DNA of 41,096 nt. It comes from Phycisphaerales bacterium (GTDB taxonomy: Bacteria; Bacteroidota; Bacteroidia; Chitinophagales; Chitinophagaceae). Location: the NCBI GenBank assembly GCA_030054025.1, contig JASGCQ010000013.1:1-41096 (forward strand). Reading direction: 5' to 3'. Both the position numbers and the translations under genes were made by a program. Within the stretch, counting starts at the first letter, position 1, and each line of letters starts with the position of its first letter. The notes under the pieces were generated by a model. The model searched no databases. It saw only the letters and a list, made by a program, of their open reading frames with translations, and was not told the origin of the DNA. Below, one piece after another: positions 35,253-41,096 of the stretch.

Positions 35253-35624
35253 ATGGCAGACATTAAAGCATTAGCAGAACAATTAGTAAACTTGACAGTA
35301 AAAGACGTTCAAGAACTTGCTGACGTATTGAAAGCAGACTACGGAATAGAGCCAGCAGCAGCAGCAGTAGTAGCTGTAGCAGGCGGTGGTGGAGCAGCAG
35401 CAGCTGAAGAAAAAACATCTTTTGATGTAATTTTGAAAAATGCAGGAGCTTCTAAATTGAACGTAGTAAAAACGGTAAAAGACTTAACAGGTCTTGGACT
35501 TAAAGAAGCTAAAGAATTAGTAGATGGTGCTCCAAAGCCAGTAAAAGAAGGTGTGAGCAAAGCCGAAGCTGAGGATATCAAAGCAAAATTGATTGAAGCA
35601 GGTGCTGAAGTTGAAATCGCTTAA
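35253..35624 (+). CDS. rplL: 50S ribosomal protein L7/L12
   Basis: 123 residues. The N-terminal dimerisation domain is followed by an alanine/glycine-rich hinge (about 33-50) and the C-terminal factor-binding domain ([36 protein letters not shown]). Last gene of the operon; a strong terminator follows after 24 bases. In most bacteria rpoB and rpoC come next; they are absent here. Confidence 0.98.
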
Positions 35625-35648
35625 TTTCCTTTCCATTCATGAATTTTT

Positions 35649-35681
35649 AATAAGGCGATACAATTGTATCGCCTTATTTTT
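35649..35681 (+). terminator. Terminator of the rplKAJL operon
   Basis: Perfect palindrome from 35649 to 35678 centred on CAATTG, with stem AAGGCGATACA and a run of Ts after it. It separates the ribosomal operon from the methyltransferase gene. Confidence 0.9.
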
Positions 35682-35736
35682 ATATTGTGTAATCAGTATC
35701 TAAGCATAAAACAAGCTACTTTCGCAGCCGAAAAAT

Positions 35737-36471
35737 ATGGAACAACAATCATGGTTCGAATCTTGGTTCAATTCGCCTTACTATAATGTGCTGTATCAAC
35801 ACAGAGATGATGCAGAAGCTGAACTGTTTGCTGAGGCTTTAATGCGATACCTGACTCCTCCAATAGGGAGCAGAATGGTGGATATCGGTTGTGGTGAAGG
35901 GCGCTTCTCGGTTCAATTTGCCCAAGAAGGTTTTGATGTAGTAGGCGTAGATATTGCAGCTAACAGAATAGAAAAGGCATTGGAGTACGAACGTGATAAT
36001 TTACATTTTTTCGTACATGACATGCGCTTGCCTTTCTATATCAATTACTTTGATTTTGCTTTCAATCTATTTACCAGTTTTGGATATTTTGCACATCAAA
36101 GTGATAACATAAGAGCCGCGAGAGCATTTGCATTGGGCTTAAAAAAGGGAGGGTATCTAGTTGTAGATTATTTGAACAAGGAATGGGTTTTACAACAATT
36201 AAAGCCACATGATATTATTGAGCGTGAGGGAGTATCTTTTGATATTCGTAAACATTTTGATGGTCAACATATCATCAAAGGAATTTGTTTTCTTGATTGT
36301 GAAGGCATCTTTAGGCAATATACGGAGCGCGTTTCTGCCTTCTCTCTAAGCGATTTTACCCAACTCTTTGCGTCGGTAGGGCTTACATTGGAAGCTACCT
36401 TTGGTAATTATACTTTAGATACTTTTGATGATAAAGTATCGCCCCGATTAATAATGGTATTTAAAAAATAG
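35737..36471 (+). CDS. Class I SAM-dependent methyltransferase
   Basis: 244 residues. Motif I VDIGCGEGRF (48-57) binds SAM, followed by the acidic end of strand 2 (VVGVDIAANRI) and motif post-I (FFVHDMRLPFY). The later segment FDFAFNLFTSFGYF is common in small-molecule or ubiquinone/menaquinone-type methyltransferases. Substrate unknown. The next gene (PAP2) starts three bases after the stop, so the two are translated together; both could act in lipid metabolism. A TACTTTCG box just upstream is a weak promoter candidate. Confidence 0.85.
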   Translation: MEQQSWFESWFNSPYYNVLYQHRDDAEAELFAEALMRYLTPPIGSRMVDIGCGEGRFSVQFAQEGFDVVGVDIAANRIEKALEYERDNLHFFVHDMRLPFYINYFDFAFNLFTSFGYFAHQSDNIRAARAFALGLKKGGYLVVDYLNKEWVLQQLKPHDIIEREGVSFDIRKHFDGQHIIKGICFLDCEGIFRQYTERVSAFSLSDFTQLFASVGLTLEATFGNYTLDTFDDKVSPRLIMVFKK

Positions 36472-37060: not shown

Positions 37061-37263
37061 ATTTAGGCAATGTTTCAGAGTTAGTGGTAGCTTTCTAATT
37101 TTTTATTTTTGATTGGTTTTTGAATTTGTAAAAATTAAATTTATCAGATATTCAAAATCCGAATCGCTCGTCCTTTTTATTATTTGCTCACCTTAAAAAA
37201 AACAATCAAAAATAAAAAAAAGAGACAAGGGACGGACGGCAAACGCACAAAGCAAGCGCACAT
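37061..37263 (+). repeat. Repeat A', left copy
   Basis: Gene-free. Matches the reverse complement of 39778-39939 with indels. Clear blocks are AATGTTTCAG with GTTAGTG (37069-37086), CTCGTCCTTTTT with TTTGCTCACC (37167-37192), and GAGACAAGGGAC through GCAAGCGCACAT (37222-37263). The middle is diverged. Minus-strand frames over it are not protein-like. Confidence 0.75.
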
Positions 37264-37264
37264 T

Positions 37265-37364
37265 TTTTGTAACCGCAAAATTCAGCAAAGAATATCCCGA
37301 TTTCTTATTCAGCAATATTGATGACTTTTTAAAGCAATAGACTTTTACCTTTGAGCCAATTAGG
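37265..37364 (+). pseudogene. Repeat B': displaced copy of the rmlD-like gene's 3' end
   Basis: 100 bases, 97 identical to the reverse complement of 39936-40035. It encodes the last 23 residues of the rmlD-like protein (VTAKFSKEYPDFLF to FLKQ), then the same stop and a following TACCTTTG. One mismatch is a synonymous valine codon (GTA against GTG). No start codon or upstream part exists here, so it is a fragment. Confidence 0.9.
37346..37353 (+). promoter_or_regulatory. -7 box upstream of mutS2, within repeat B'
   Basis: TACCTTTG, an exact TAnnTTTG match, 24 bases before the mutS2 ATG. No clear -33 element. The same box is present in the other repeat copy behind rmlD. Confidence 0.45.
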
Positions 37365-37376
37365 ACCCAATAGATT

Positions 37377-39491
37377 ATGTTGCAATTGTACCCTGCCAAT
37401 GCAGGCGATTCTTTAGAGTTTAGTAAAGTAAAACAATTATTGTTGGAAAAATGCCGTACCGATGCGGCTAAGGAGTGTGTGTGCGAACTCAAATTCAATT
37501 CGCACTTAGCCTTTATCGAAAAAGCATTATTGCAAACATCGGAGTATCGCTCTATACTCAGCGGAACAGATTATTTTCCCTCCGATTTTAATCAGAATGT
37601 GCAAAAAGAATTGCAGCTCTTGGCACTCAGCGGCGCCAGCCTTTCGGGCGAACAATTAAGGGGCTTGAGCAACCTTGCGTTGAGCATCAAAAGCATCTTG
37701 AATTGGTTCGCCGGACACAACAAGCTCTTTCCTCAATTACAAGCACTTTCTGAAAAAATTCATTATTATGAAGAGATTGCCCAAATCGTTACCGCCGTAG
37801 TGGATGAGCAAGGCAATGTACGCGATAATGCTTCGAAAGAATTGATGAGTATCCGCATGGAGCTCTCCAAACAACGCAACCAACTACGCAAATTGTTTGA
37901 GTCCATCCTCCGCAAGTTGAGTAAGCAAGGCTATCTTGCCGATATATCTGAAGGTTTTTTAAACGGCAGAAGAACAGTCGCCATCACCGCAGAACACAAG
38001 CGTATCGTAAAAGGTATTTTGCATGGAGAAAGCGACACCCACAAAACAGTATTTATTGAGCCCGAAGAAACGATTGAATTAAACAACGAAATCTTCTCGT
38101 TGGAGCGTGCTGAATCGCGCGAGATTCACCGCATACTATCGCAAACTACGGCAAGCCTTTCGACCTATCAGCCACAATTGGCCAGCTATTACCATTTGTG
38201 TGGGCTCTACGATTTCATCCGTGCAAAGGCATTATTGGCGGTGGATATGAATGCCTTTATGCCCCGATTGAGTGCTCATCCTTCTGTGCAACTCATCAAA
38301 GCATTTCACCCCATCCTTTTTCTAAACAACAAAAGGAACAACAAAACCATTGTCCCGACCAATATACAGCTCGATAGAGAACAGCGGATTCTCATCATCA
38401 GCGGTCCCAACGCAGGGGGCAAAACGGTAACAATGAAAACCGTTGGATTGCTACAATTGATGCTGCAAGCAGGATTGCTAGTGCCTGTGGATCCCAACTC
38501 TGAAATGGGGGTTTTTAAACAAATCATGATTCATATTGGCGATACACAGTCTATAGAACAAGAATTGAGTACCTACAGTGCGCATCTCCGCGACATGAAA
38601 TATTTCATGGACTTTGCCAATGGCAAAACTTTGCTCTTTATTGACGAATTGGGCAGCGGCTCCGACCCCAATCTGGGCGGTGCTTTTGCCGAAGCTATTG
38701 TAGAAGAGTTGGCACGCAAACATGCACTGGGAATAGTTACTACCCATTATCTCAACCTCAAATTAATGGCGGGTAAAGTGCATGGTATCATGAATGGGGC
38801 TATGGTTTTCGACGAAGAAAAATTAGAGCCTTTGTACCAACTCTCCATCGGCAAGCCAGGCAGCTCCTATACCTTTGCTATTGCCCAGCGCAGCGGCTTG
38901 GATGCTAAAATCATTGGCAGAGCCAAACAACTCACTGAGCGGGGACATTTCAAATTGGATAAGATGCTCTTGCAGACCGAGCAACAAGTGATTCAGTTAT
39001 CGGACAAGGAAAAAGCCCTGAACAAATTGCTCAAAGACAATGAAAAGCTGAAGAAAGAAATGGAGCATCTGAATGACAAAGAGCGGGTGAAACAACAGCA
39101 AGATGCCCTAAAATTGCAGAACCTCATCAAGAAAGAAGAATTGGACTATCTGCGCGAAATGGAACGCAATTTCAAGCAAATCATACTCGATTGGAAGAAG
39201 ATTGAGAATAAAAACGAAGTCATAAAAAATGCAGAATCTGTCCTCTTCAAAAAGAAGCAAATTCAAAGCAATCAAAGTGCGGCACGCAAAGCCGATAAAA
39301 ATTTTGAAATCGTAGGCGGATCCGCCAAAATAGGCGACCTCCTCCGCCACAAAGCCAAGCACCAAGTAGGTATCCTCAAAGAATTAAAAGACAAATATGC
39401 CTTGATTATGATTGGTAAAATGCCCTTCAAAGTGCTCATCGAAGAATGGGTAGTGGTGCGTAAAAAAGAAGACGAAGGGAAGAAAAAATAA
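37377..39491 (+). CDS. mutS2: MutS2-type ATPase lacking the Smr domain
   Basis: 704 residues. MutS2 proteins bind branched DNA or stalled/collided ribosomes and, in other bacteria, suppress recombination. The core is intact: Walker A GPNAGGKT (343-350), Walker B TLLFIDELGSGSDP (418-431), and the TTHYLNLK histidine. The N-terminal lever/clamp region (1-310) and a long charged coiled coil (about 530-630) follow the family. The C-terminus ends in a small KOW-like segment (GDLLRHKAKHQVGILKELKDKYALIMIG) and a lysine tail; the ~80-residue Smr nuclease domain of Bacillus-type MutS2 (about 785 residues) is absent. No remnant of Smr is visible downstream. It is flanked by inverted repeats. Confidence 0.92.
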   Translation: MLQLYPANAGDSLEFSKVKQLLLEKCRTDAAKECVCELKFNSHLAFIEKALLQTSEYRSILSGTDYFPSDFNQNVQKELQLLALSGASLSGEQLRGLSNLALSIKSILNWFAGHNKLFPQLQALSEKIHYYEEIAQIVTAVVDEQGNVRDNASKELMSIRMELSKQRNQLRKLFESILRKLSKQGYLADISEGFLNGRRTVAITAEHKRIVKGILHGESDTHKTVFIEPEETIELNNEIFSLERAESREIHRILSQTTASLSTYQPQLASYYHLCGLYDFIRAKALLAVDMNAFMPRLSAHPSVQLIKAFHPILFLNNKRNNKTIVPTNIQLDREQRILIISGPNAGGKTVTMKTVGLLQLMLQAGLLVPVDPNSEMGVFKQIMIHIGDTQSIEQELSTYSAHLRDMKYFMDFANGKTLLFIDELGSGSDPNLGGAFAEAIVEELARKHALGIVTTHYLNLKLMAGKVHGIMNGAMVFDEEKLEPLYQLSIGKPGSSYTFAIAQRSGLDAKIIGRAKQLTERGHFKLDKMLLQTEQQVIQLSDKEKALNKLLKDNEKLKKEMEHLNDKERVKQQQDALKLQNLIKKEELDYLREMERNFKQIILDWKKIENKNEVIKNAESVLFKKKQIQSNQSAARKADKNFEIVGGSAKIGDLLRHKAKHQVGILKELKDKYALIMIGKMPFKVLIEEWVVVRKKEDEGKKK

Positions 39492-39777
39492 AGCACGGCT
39501 TGAATAATTCTCATCTTAAATTGAGATAGCCCTTTAAAACATTTATCAATACCGAAAAATTGGGTTATACCAATTAGATAACCAATGGGGCATGATGTAT
39601 GGGTTCATAAATTATAGGGCAAATGCAACGATATTGGCAGTAATACAGTTAAAGTATTACATCGTAGTTCGGCAGTTCATCTACACCCACATATTAAAAT
39701 GCTGCAATGGATATTAAACCCAAATTTTGTAGTAGCGGTATTTTTGAATAATCTGACCCAAAAACACCCTCCTTTCA
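39492..39777. other. Gene-free spacer after mutS2
   Basis: No supported gene. A small inverted repeat GGTTAT/ATAACC lies at about 39564-39584. Short plus-strand frames (from 39699 and 39778) run into the repeat and look accidental. No clear terminator for mutS2 is visible. Confidence 0.4.
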
Positions 39778-39939
39778 ATGTGCGCTTGCTTTGTGTGTTT
39801 GCCGTCTGTCCCTTGTCTCTTTTTTTATTTTCGTTTTGGTTTTTTGAGGGTGAGCAAATACAAAAAAGGACGAGTGACGCCGCTTTCTATTTTTATTTCT
39901 CTTGTTTTTTCCATCACTAACGCTGAAACATTACCCCTA
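39778..39939 (-). repeat. Repeat A, right copy (inverted relative to A')
   Basis: Reverse-complement match to 37061-37263, strongest over 39778-39817 (GCGCTTGCTTTGTG and GTCCCTTGTCTC) and 39850-39880 (GGTGAGCAAATA, then AGGACGAGTG). It directly follows repeat B when read on the minus strand. Confidence 0.75.
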
Positions 39940-40035
39940 ATTGGCGCAAAGGTAAAAGCCTATTGCTTTAAAAAGTCATCAATATTGCTGAATAAGAAAT
40001 CGGGATATTCTTTGCTGAATTTTGCGGTCACAAAA
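39936..40035 (-). repeat. Repeat B, right copy (3' end of the rmlD-like gene)
   Basis: Inverted counterpart of 37265-37364 with three mismatches in 100 bases. It covers the final 25 codons including the stop of the rmlD-like gene and 24 bases of its downstream flank, including a minus-strand TACCTTTG. Confidence 0.9.
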
Positions 40036-40823
40036 CCGCCCAGTAGCGGACGTGCTGCAGGCTGATTGAGTTCGGCAGTGCTGAGTGGAATTAAATCATA
40101 TACAGCATTGGGGAAATATTGTAACACTCTCAAGGCAAGTGCAACACGGTTCATGTAGTCGGTGCCGCCGATATGGTAGATGCCGCTTTTGCCATCGCGC
40201 AGCAATGCAAACATGGCACGGGCTATGTCCATAGCATTGGTGGGCGAAGCAAATTGATCGTAGGGGAGTTTGAGGGTCAATTTTTGTTCCTCTTTGCATT
40301 GCTGTACAATGCGCGAAACGAAATTTTTGCCACGATCCTCATTGCCATAGATATTGGTAACACGCAAGACTAGGGTATTGGCTACTTGAGCCAATGCCAA
40401 TTGCTCGGCTTCTAGTTTGTGGCGAGCATATACGCTCAATGGGTTGAGTGGAGCATCTTCGCTATAAGGCCCGTCTTTGCCATCGAACACATAATCGGTG
40501 GAGATATAGACCAAGCGTGCTTTGCATTGTTGTGCCAGAGCTATGATATTGATGGTGCTTTGTACGGTTTTTTGATAGCTTTCTTCCACGTTTGCTTCGC
40601 AATAATCTACATGAGTAAGTGCGCCGCAATGTACCAATACATCGGGTTTCCAGCCGATGATGTCAAAATTATCGGCATGGTTGGGCTCTAAGGTGTTGTA
40701 AAATACGGTGCCTTCTGTAGCATAGGAGAAATAAGAACCTTTTACCTCCCAGCCTTGTGCGGCAAAATGCTGCATACAATTACTGCCTACTAATCCCGAT
40801 GCGCCAACAATAAATACTTTCAT
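39960..40823 (-). CDS. RmlD-like SDR reductase (dTDP-4-dehydrorhamnose reductase family)
   Basis: 287 residues of the extended short-chain dehydrogenase family. The N-terminal Rossmann motif is GASGLVGS (8-15), the catalytic motif YARHK is at about 131-135 with a preceding YISTDYVFDGKDGPYSE, the family's signature of RmlD and MAT2B-like proteins. It would reduce a nucleotide-sugar keto group for surface polysaccharide synthesis, but no other rhamnose genes are nearby, so the substrate is uncertain. The last 25 codons including the stop are duplicated in inverted form before mutS2. Confidence 0.85.
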   Translation of the reverse strand: MKVFIVGASGLVGSNCMQHFAAQGWEVKGSYFSYATEGTVFYNTLEPNHADNFDIIGWKPDVLVHCGALTHVDYCEANVEESYQKTVQSTINIIALAQQCKARLVYISTDYVFDGKDGPYSEDAPLNPLSVYARHKLEAEQLALAQVANTLVLRVTNIYGNEDRGKNFVSRIVQQCKEEQKLTLKLPYDQFASPTNAMDIARAMFALLRDGKSGIYHIGGTDYMNRVALALRVLQYFPNAVYDLIPLSTAELNQPAARPLLGGFVTAKFSKEYPDFLFSNIDDFLKQ

Positions 40824-40839
40824 AGAAAAAATGTTGCTG

Positions 40840-40847
40840 CAAAAATA
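40840..40847 (-). promoter_or_regulatory. -7 box for the rmlD-like gene
   Basis: Minus-strand TATTTTTG, an exact TAnnTTTG match, 17 bases before the ATG at 40823. No clear -33 TTTG at the usual spacing. Confidence 0.5.
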
Positions 40848-41034
40848 AAGCTTCTAAATGAAATCGGGATTGAATTTAGGAGTCCTTGATTAGCCCAAAA
40901 AGTTCAATAGGCTTTAATCTTCTAATGACCGTCAATAGGTTTTTTTGTTTCTAGGTGTTTGAATGTGAATGTATTGCGTTTCATATTAAGGATTGAAAAA
41001 AGTTGTAAATAAGCTGTAAGAAAATCTTACGCCC

Positions 41035-41096
41035 ATGAGTACCCTAAAAATAGAATACACCGACAAAGAAATTACCGCCAATGGTGGCATAGCCTT
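41035..41096 (+). CDS. Probable transposase, N-terminus only (runs off window)
   Basis: ATG at 41035 opens a frame to the window end: MSTLKIEYTDKEITANGGIA. This resembles the start of IS1380-type transposases of Bacteroidota (a YTDKEIT then GG motif), as far as 20 residues allow. Just upstream lies an inverted repeat GTAAGA/TCTTAC (41016-41030) that could be part of an element end or leader. An insertion-sequence identity is plausible but unproven; it could instead be an unrelated gene. Confidence 0.5.
   Translation, partial: MSTLKIEYTDKEITANGGIA

Follow-up and report, generated by a model that had tools for sequence, protein, structure and literature searches.

The presence of mutS2 between two nearly identical inverted repeats raises the question of whether the gene occupies a segment that flips back and forth by recombination or one that was turned around in a past rearrangement. 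The window, that is, the whole stretch of DNA analysed here (41,096 nucleotides), corresponds to the entire contig C80 of one metagenome assembly, with a genome of 2.49 Mb distributed over 127 contigs.

The mutS2 locus and its inverted arms

From left to right, the region carries rplL (35253-35624), a methyltransferase gene, a PAP2-family gene, mutS2, an rmlD-like gene and the end of an insertion-sequence-like element. The mutS2-like gene (37377-39491, plus strand) encodes a protein of 704 amino acids that lies above the TIGR01069 equivalog cut-off (589 bits vs 400). The rmlD-like gene (39960-40823, minus strand) is complete and belongs to the dTDP-4-dehydrorhamnose reductase family; its product is assigned to RmlD by Pfam (PF04321, 188.7 bits) and the gene is 84-89% identical to its sister copies. 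Since its TIGR01214 score remains under the equivalog cut-off (182.6 vs 224), "rmlD-like" is the proper wording. Between the 3' end of mutS2 and the right-hand repeats lies a stretch of 285 nt, named D (39492-39776), that has no counterpart among the loci of relatives compared and stands where the aminotransferase and LpxD neighbors are usual. The search for RNA features gave no Rfam match. At the left, rplL is followed by the methyltransferase and PAP2 genes (35253-36471), and the expected rpoB is not next within the window, possibly reflecting another rearrangement. At the right, the multi-copy insertion-sequence-like element is represented by its left end (40890-41096, plus strand), which runs to the contig end. 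This end is matched about 28 times in the genome, in many cases exactly at a contig end, so the element likely limits the assembly and may also drive rearrangement. It is presumably IS1380-like, judging from the start of its protein only, and a deleted relative of it in L242 has matching terminal inverted repeats.

The two repeats that enclose mutS2 are a left arm (I1', 37265-37364, plus strand) and a right arm (I1, 39936-40035, minus strand). As first noticed in the earlier note, each is the reverse complement of the other with three mismatches, and the comparison was reproduced exactly: 100 nt, 97% identity, 2571 nt between the arms, differences at 37271 (A/G), 37341 (A/G) and 37354 (A/C), and a longest exact run of 69 bases. 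The left arm consists of the last 25 codons and the stop of an rmlD-like gene (remnant at 37265-37340) followed by 24 nt of intergenic DNA, and the right arm comprises the 3' end of the complete rmlD-like gene together with a second copy of a promoter box, TACCTTTG. Both elements had been assigned to both arms in the earlier note, and both are indeed found there. In the 41-kb window only two inverted pairs of at least 40 bases exist, which excludes chance as the origin of the arms. The second pair, absent from the earlier note, measures 110 nt with 84% identity (37155-37264 and 39777-39886), abuts both arms and corresponds to copies of a dispersed repeat, hereafter element E.

Ancestral gene order and derived arrangement

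The orientation from which the present layout arose can be deduced from relatives. In three of five genomes of the same genus (G001, G003 and G005), rmlD immediately precedes mutS2 on one strand, the protein matches being 40-47 bases apart, whereas in the window the two genes converge. A fourth genome (G002) also has rmlD followed by mutS2, with about 1.1 kb inserted between them, and in the fifth (G004) the genes are apart. The adjacency was also considered as a wide family trait and rejected, being absent from the loci compared outside the genus. The distance from the rmlD stop to the mutS2 ATG is 36 nt both at the left copy in the window and in G005. Together with the gene order of the relatives, this equal gap indicates that the left copy is the original upstream junction of mutS2 and that the present order is derived. 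In agreement with this, the left arm and mutS2 align to G005 unbroken from 37265 to 39488, while the right arm and the rmlD-like gene align to the same genome from 39943 to 40856, so that either side extends into a different half of the ancestral junction and the two halves overlap precisely in the repeat. These comparisons of gene order support an inversion of mutS2 next to rmlD, from an ancestral state with rmlD and then mutS2 on one strand, as the earlier note had suspected.

Between the arms and the relatives there are 7-17 differences per 100 positions, compared with 3 between the two arms, which makes the duplication appear younger than the species split. The base at 37354 is derived in the left arm, and at 37341 the right arm agrees with G005 and G001. 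Alignments of sister species to the window contain no duplicate of the arm, but E copies stand at both window junctions.

In all five relatives of the same genus, a converging aminotransferase gene comes next after mutS2, and then an LpxD-like gene. In the present genome these two genes are located on another contig (C48), which starts inside the aminotransferase gene, and the methyltransferase-PAP2 pair is located away from mutS2 in the relatives. The separation of mutS2 from its usual neighbors implies at least one further rearrangement at the locus.

Conservation of the probable mutS2 promoter

The box present in the left arm, TACCTTTG (37346-37353, plus strand), fits the Bacteroidota -7 element, TAnnTTTG or TAHHTTTG (PMC6847099). 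Of 27 mutS2 homologues, 22 carry a TAHHTTTG box in the 80 nt preceding the gene, in most cases some 30 nt before the start, compared with 1.5% of control stretches. On the basis of this comparison of homologous upstream regions, the box is very probably the promoter of mutS2 itself, belonging to this gene and not to rmlD, and the proposal that mutS2 keeps its promoter box holds. The copy in the right arm (39947-39954, minus strand) is an orphan that points across D and one copy of element E (E2) at the 3' end of mutS2 in the antisense direction, and from 39947 to 39491 the minus strand contains no terminator-like site. The duplicated piece spans the rmlD stop codon as well as the mutS2 promoter, and both genes remained complete for this reason.

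Element E and the origin of the second arm

The core of E is present in five copies in the genome, two of them at this locus. The first, E1 (37066-37264, plus strand), abuts the left arm and resembles in its left part the copies on C122 and C62, the former being longer (about 357 nt). The second, E2 (39777-39935, minus strand), abuts the right arm in the opposite orientation, has the layout of the copy on C31 and shares 97.6% core identity with the copy on C111. The two are 86% identical in their shared core and have different inner parts. A joint duplication of E1 and E2 with the arms was therefore rejected on subtype and identity, the core of E having 14 differences in 101 positions and the arms 3 in 100 (Fisher p about 0.02, computed with 13/105). 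Element E is older than the arms, and, as E1 and E2 represent different subtypes, the event that duplicated the arms did not generate them, and one has to suppose that two E copies were already in place. More generally, E is a small, rare dispersed repeat whose internal deletions vary. Fragments of it are found next to reading frames, or at their start, on C31, C107, C8 and C123, and a nearby frame on C31 appears RHS-like by eye.

These data are probably best explained by a single inversion of mutS2 during which the 100 bases of the rmlD/mutS2 boundary were copied inversely to the other breakpoint. Starting from rmlD and mutS2 head to tail, the mutS2 segment would have inverted once and the 100 boundary bases would have been transferred, in inverse orientation, to the far breakpoint, either through staggered breaks that were filled in or through a template switch during replication. 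The break at that side probably occurred at a copy of E or between such copies. We infer that duplication and inversion formed one event, and the arms seem to have resulted from the inversion, not to have caused it. Against a single event stand the different subtypes of E1 and E2, the additional loss by mutS2 of its conserved neighbors and the availability of one metagenome assembly only.

The same end state would be reached if the whole rmlD-mutS2 pair had been inversely duplicated and one copy had later lost mutS2 and the other most of rmlD, with E at the deletion edges. The E elements do coincide exactly with the points at which rmlD breaks off on the left and mutS2 on the right. However, this route demands a large duplication plus two deletions, and beyond the 100 bases no remnants of the lost halves were found, all of which makes it unlikely. 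It is still less probable that the orientation of mutS2 is an artifact of assembly across one of the repeats, E or I1. The origin of the contig in a metagenome assembly of 127 contigs, many of which end in a repeat, and the up to 41 exact bases common to the E copies are consistent with such a misassembly, but three positions distinguish the arms and E1 and E2 diverge widely, which gives each context a sequence of its own, and the exact run of 69 bases is presumably below usual read lengths.

Does the segment still flip?

Invertible promoters of Bacteroidota, or invertons, consist of short inverted repeats on which a site-specific recombinase acts to switch a gene on or off. The mutS2 locus resembles them in having a promoter-bearing segment near inverted repeats. 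Unlike in invertons, the promoter here travels together with mutS2, and the window yielded no recombinase: its main open reading frames, scanned with Pfam, include neither an integrase nor an invertase. A flip could also proceed without a dedicated enzyme, by RecA-type homologous recombination between the 100-base arms in part of the population. With 69 exact bases, the arms have the length and similarity needed for occasional recombination, and a flip would restore the ancestral rmlD-mutS2 junction exactly. This explanation is nonetheless unlikely, given that the window encodes no recombinase, that the arms still differ at three fixed positions and that the origin of the second arm would be left unexplained. 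Moreover, on sequence grounds, mutS2 has its own box and rmlD is complete in both orientations; a flip would alter neither the reading frames nor the promoters, leaving no obvious switch output. Nor can the loss of the downstream neighbors of mutS2 be explained by simply flipping the segment between the arms.

The idea of two interchanging orientations, put forward in the earlier note, is thus not borne out, both because the window holds no recombinase and because the downstream neighbors were lost too. Only one orientation is known, there is no support for a live two-state switch at mutS2, and we infer that the locus is now essentially fixed. A more elaborate possibility, in which the arms still recombine, both orders coexist in the population and the orphan box directs antisense transcription into the 3' end of mutS2, would provide orientation-dependent control of the gene without a dedicated recombinase, and it is very improbable.

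MutS2 without an Smr domain

The earlier note had considered the location remarkable in view of the link between MutS2 and recombination control. This argument is weak, as the MutS2 of the window lacks an Smr domain: there is no PF01713 match, Pfam recognizes MutS_V only, and the TIGR01069 profile match ends at position 696 of 790. The one Smr match of the genome lies in a separate frame of 340 amino acids. In addition, MutS2 of Bacillus subtilis acts in ribosome rescue (PMC10897456).

The absence of Smr extends to other members of the group. In this genus (the window and the relatives L018 and L109), MutS2 has 704 amino acids and no Smr, and a 704-aa homologue in Puia gives no Smr match either. 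Almost every genome of the family has Smr as a protein frame of its own, about 340 amino acids long. A MutS2 with Smr occurs in a relative belonging to another family of the order, and in several families of the order Smr is fused to MutS2 (785-850 aa). From these protein comparisons it looks as if Smr was split from or lost by MutS2 family-wide.

Relation to known inversions and implications

DNA duplication associated with inversion, with inverted duplicates at the breakpoints, has been described in bacteria, in passages of PMC8963470 and PMC4671568 that cite Furuta 2011 on Helicobacter pylori. As in the process outlined in those passages, the mutS2 locus has an inverted segment with the DNA of one breakpoint present in inverse copies at both ends, and few steps are required. 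Unlike the cases presented there, the duplicate comprises 100 bases and no whole gene, and a dispersed repeat stands at both breakpoints. The inversion is also small, about 2.5 kb vs about 128 kb in Thermus (PMC8963470). Inversions with inverted breakpoint duplicates generated by staggered breaks are also known in flies (PMC4965816). As in Drosophila, the duplicates preserve a working copy of the boundary genes; differently from Drosophila, the mutS2 inversion occurred in a bacterium, with repeat E at the other end and with E1 and E2 not being duplicates of each other.

The locus is a bacterial rearrangement of an ordinary kind that left a neat signature. It represents a clear and polarised case in which a small inversion in a bacterium duplicated its own breakpoint, with both boundary genes retaining their ends and promoter. 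The inverted repeats left by such inversions mimic a switch, which calls for caution when invertible loci are called from repeats alone.
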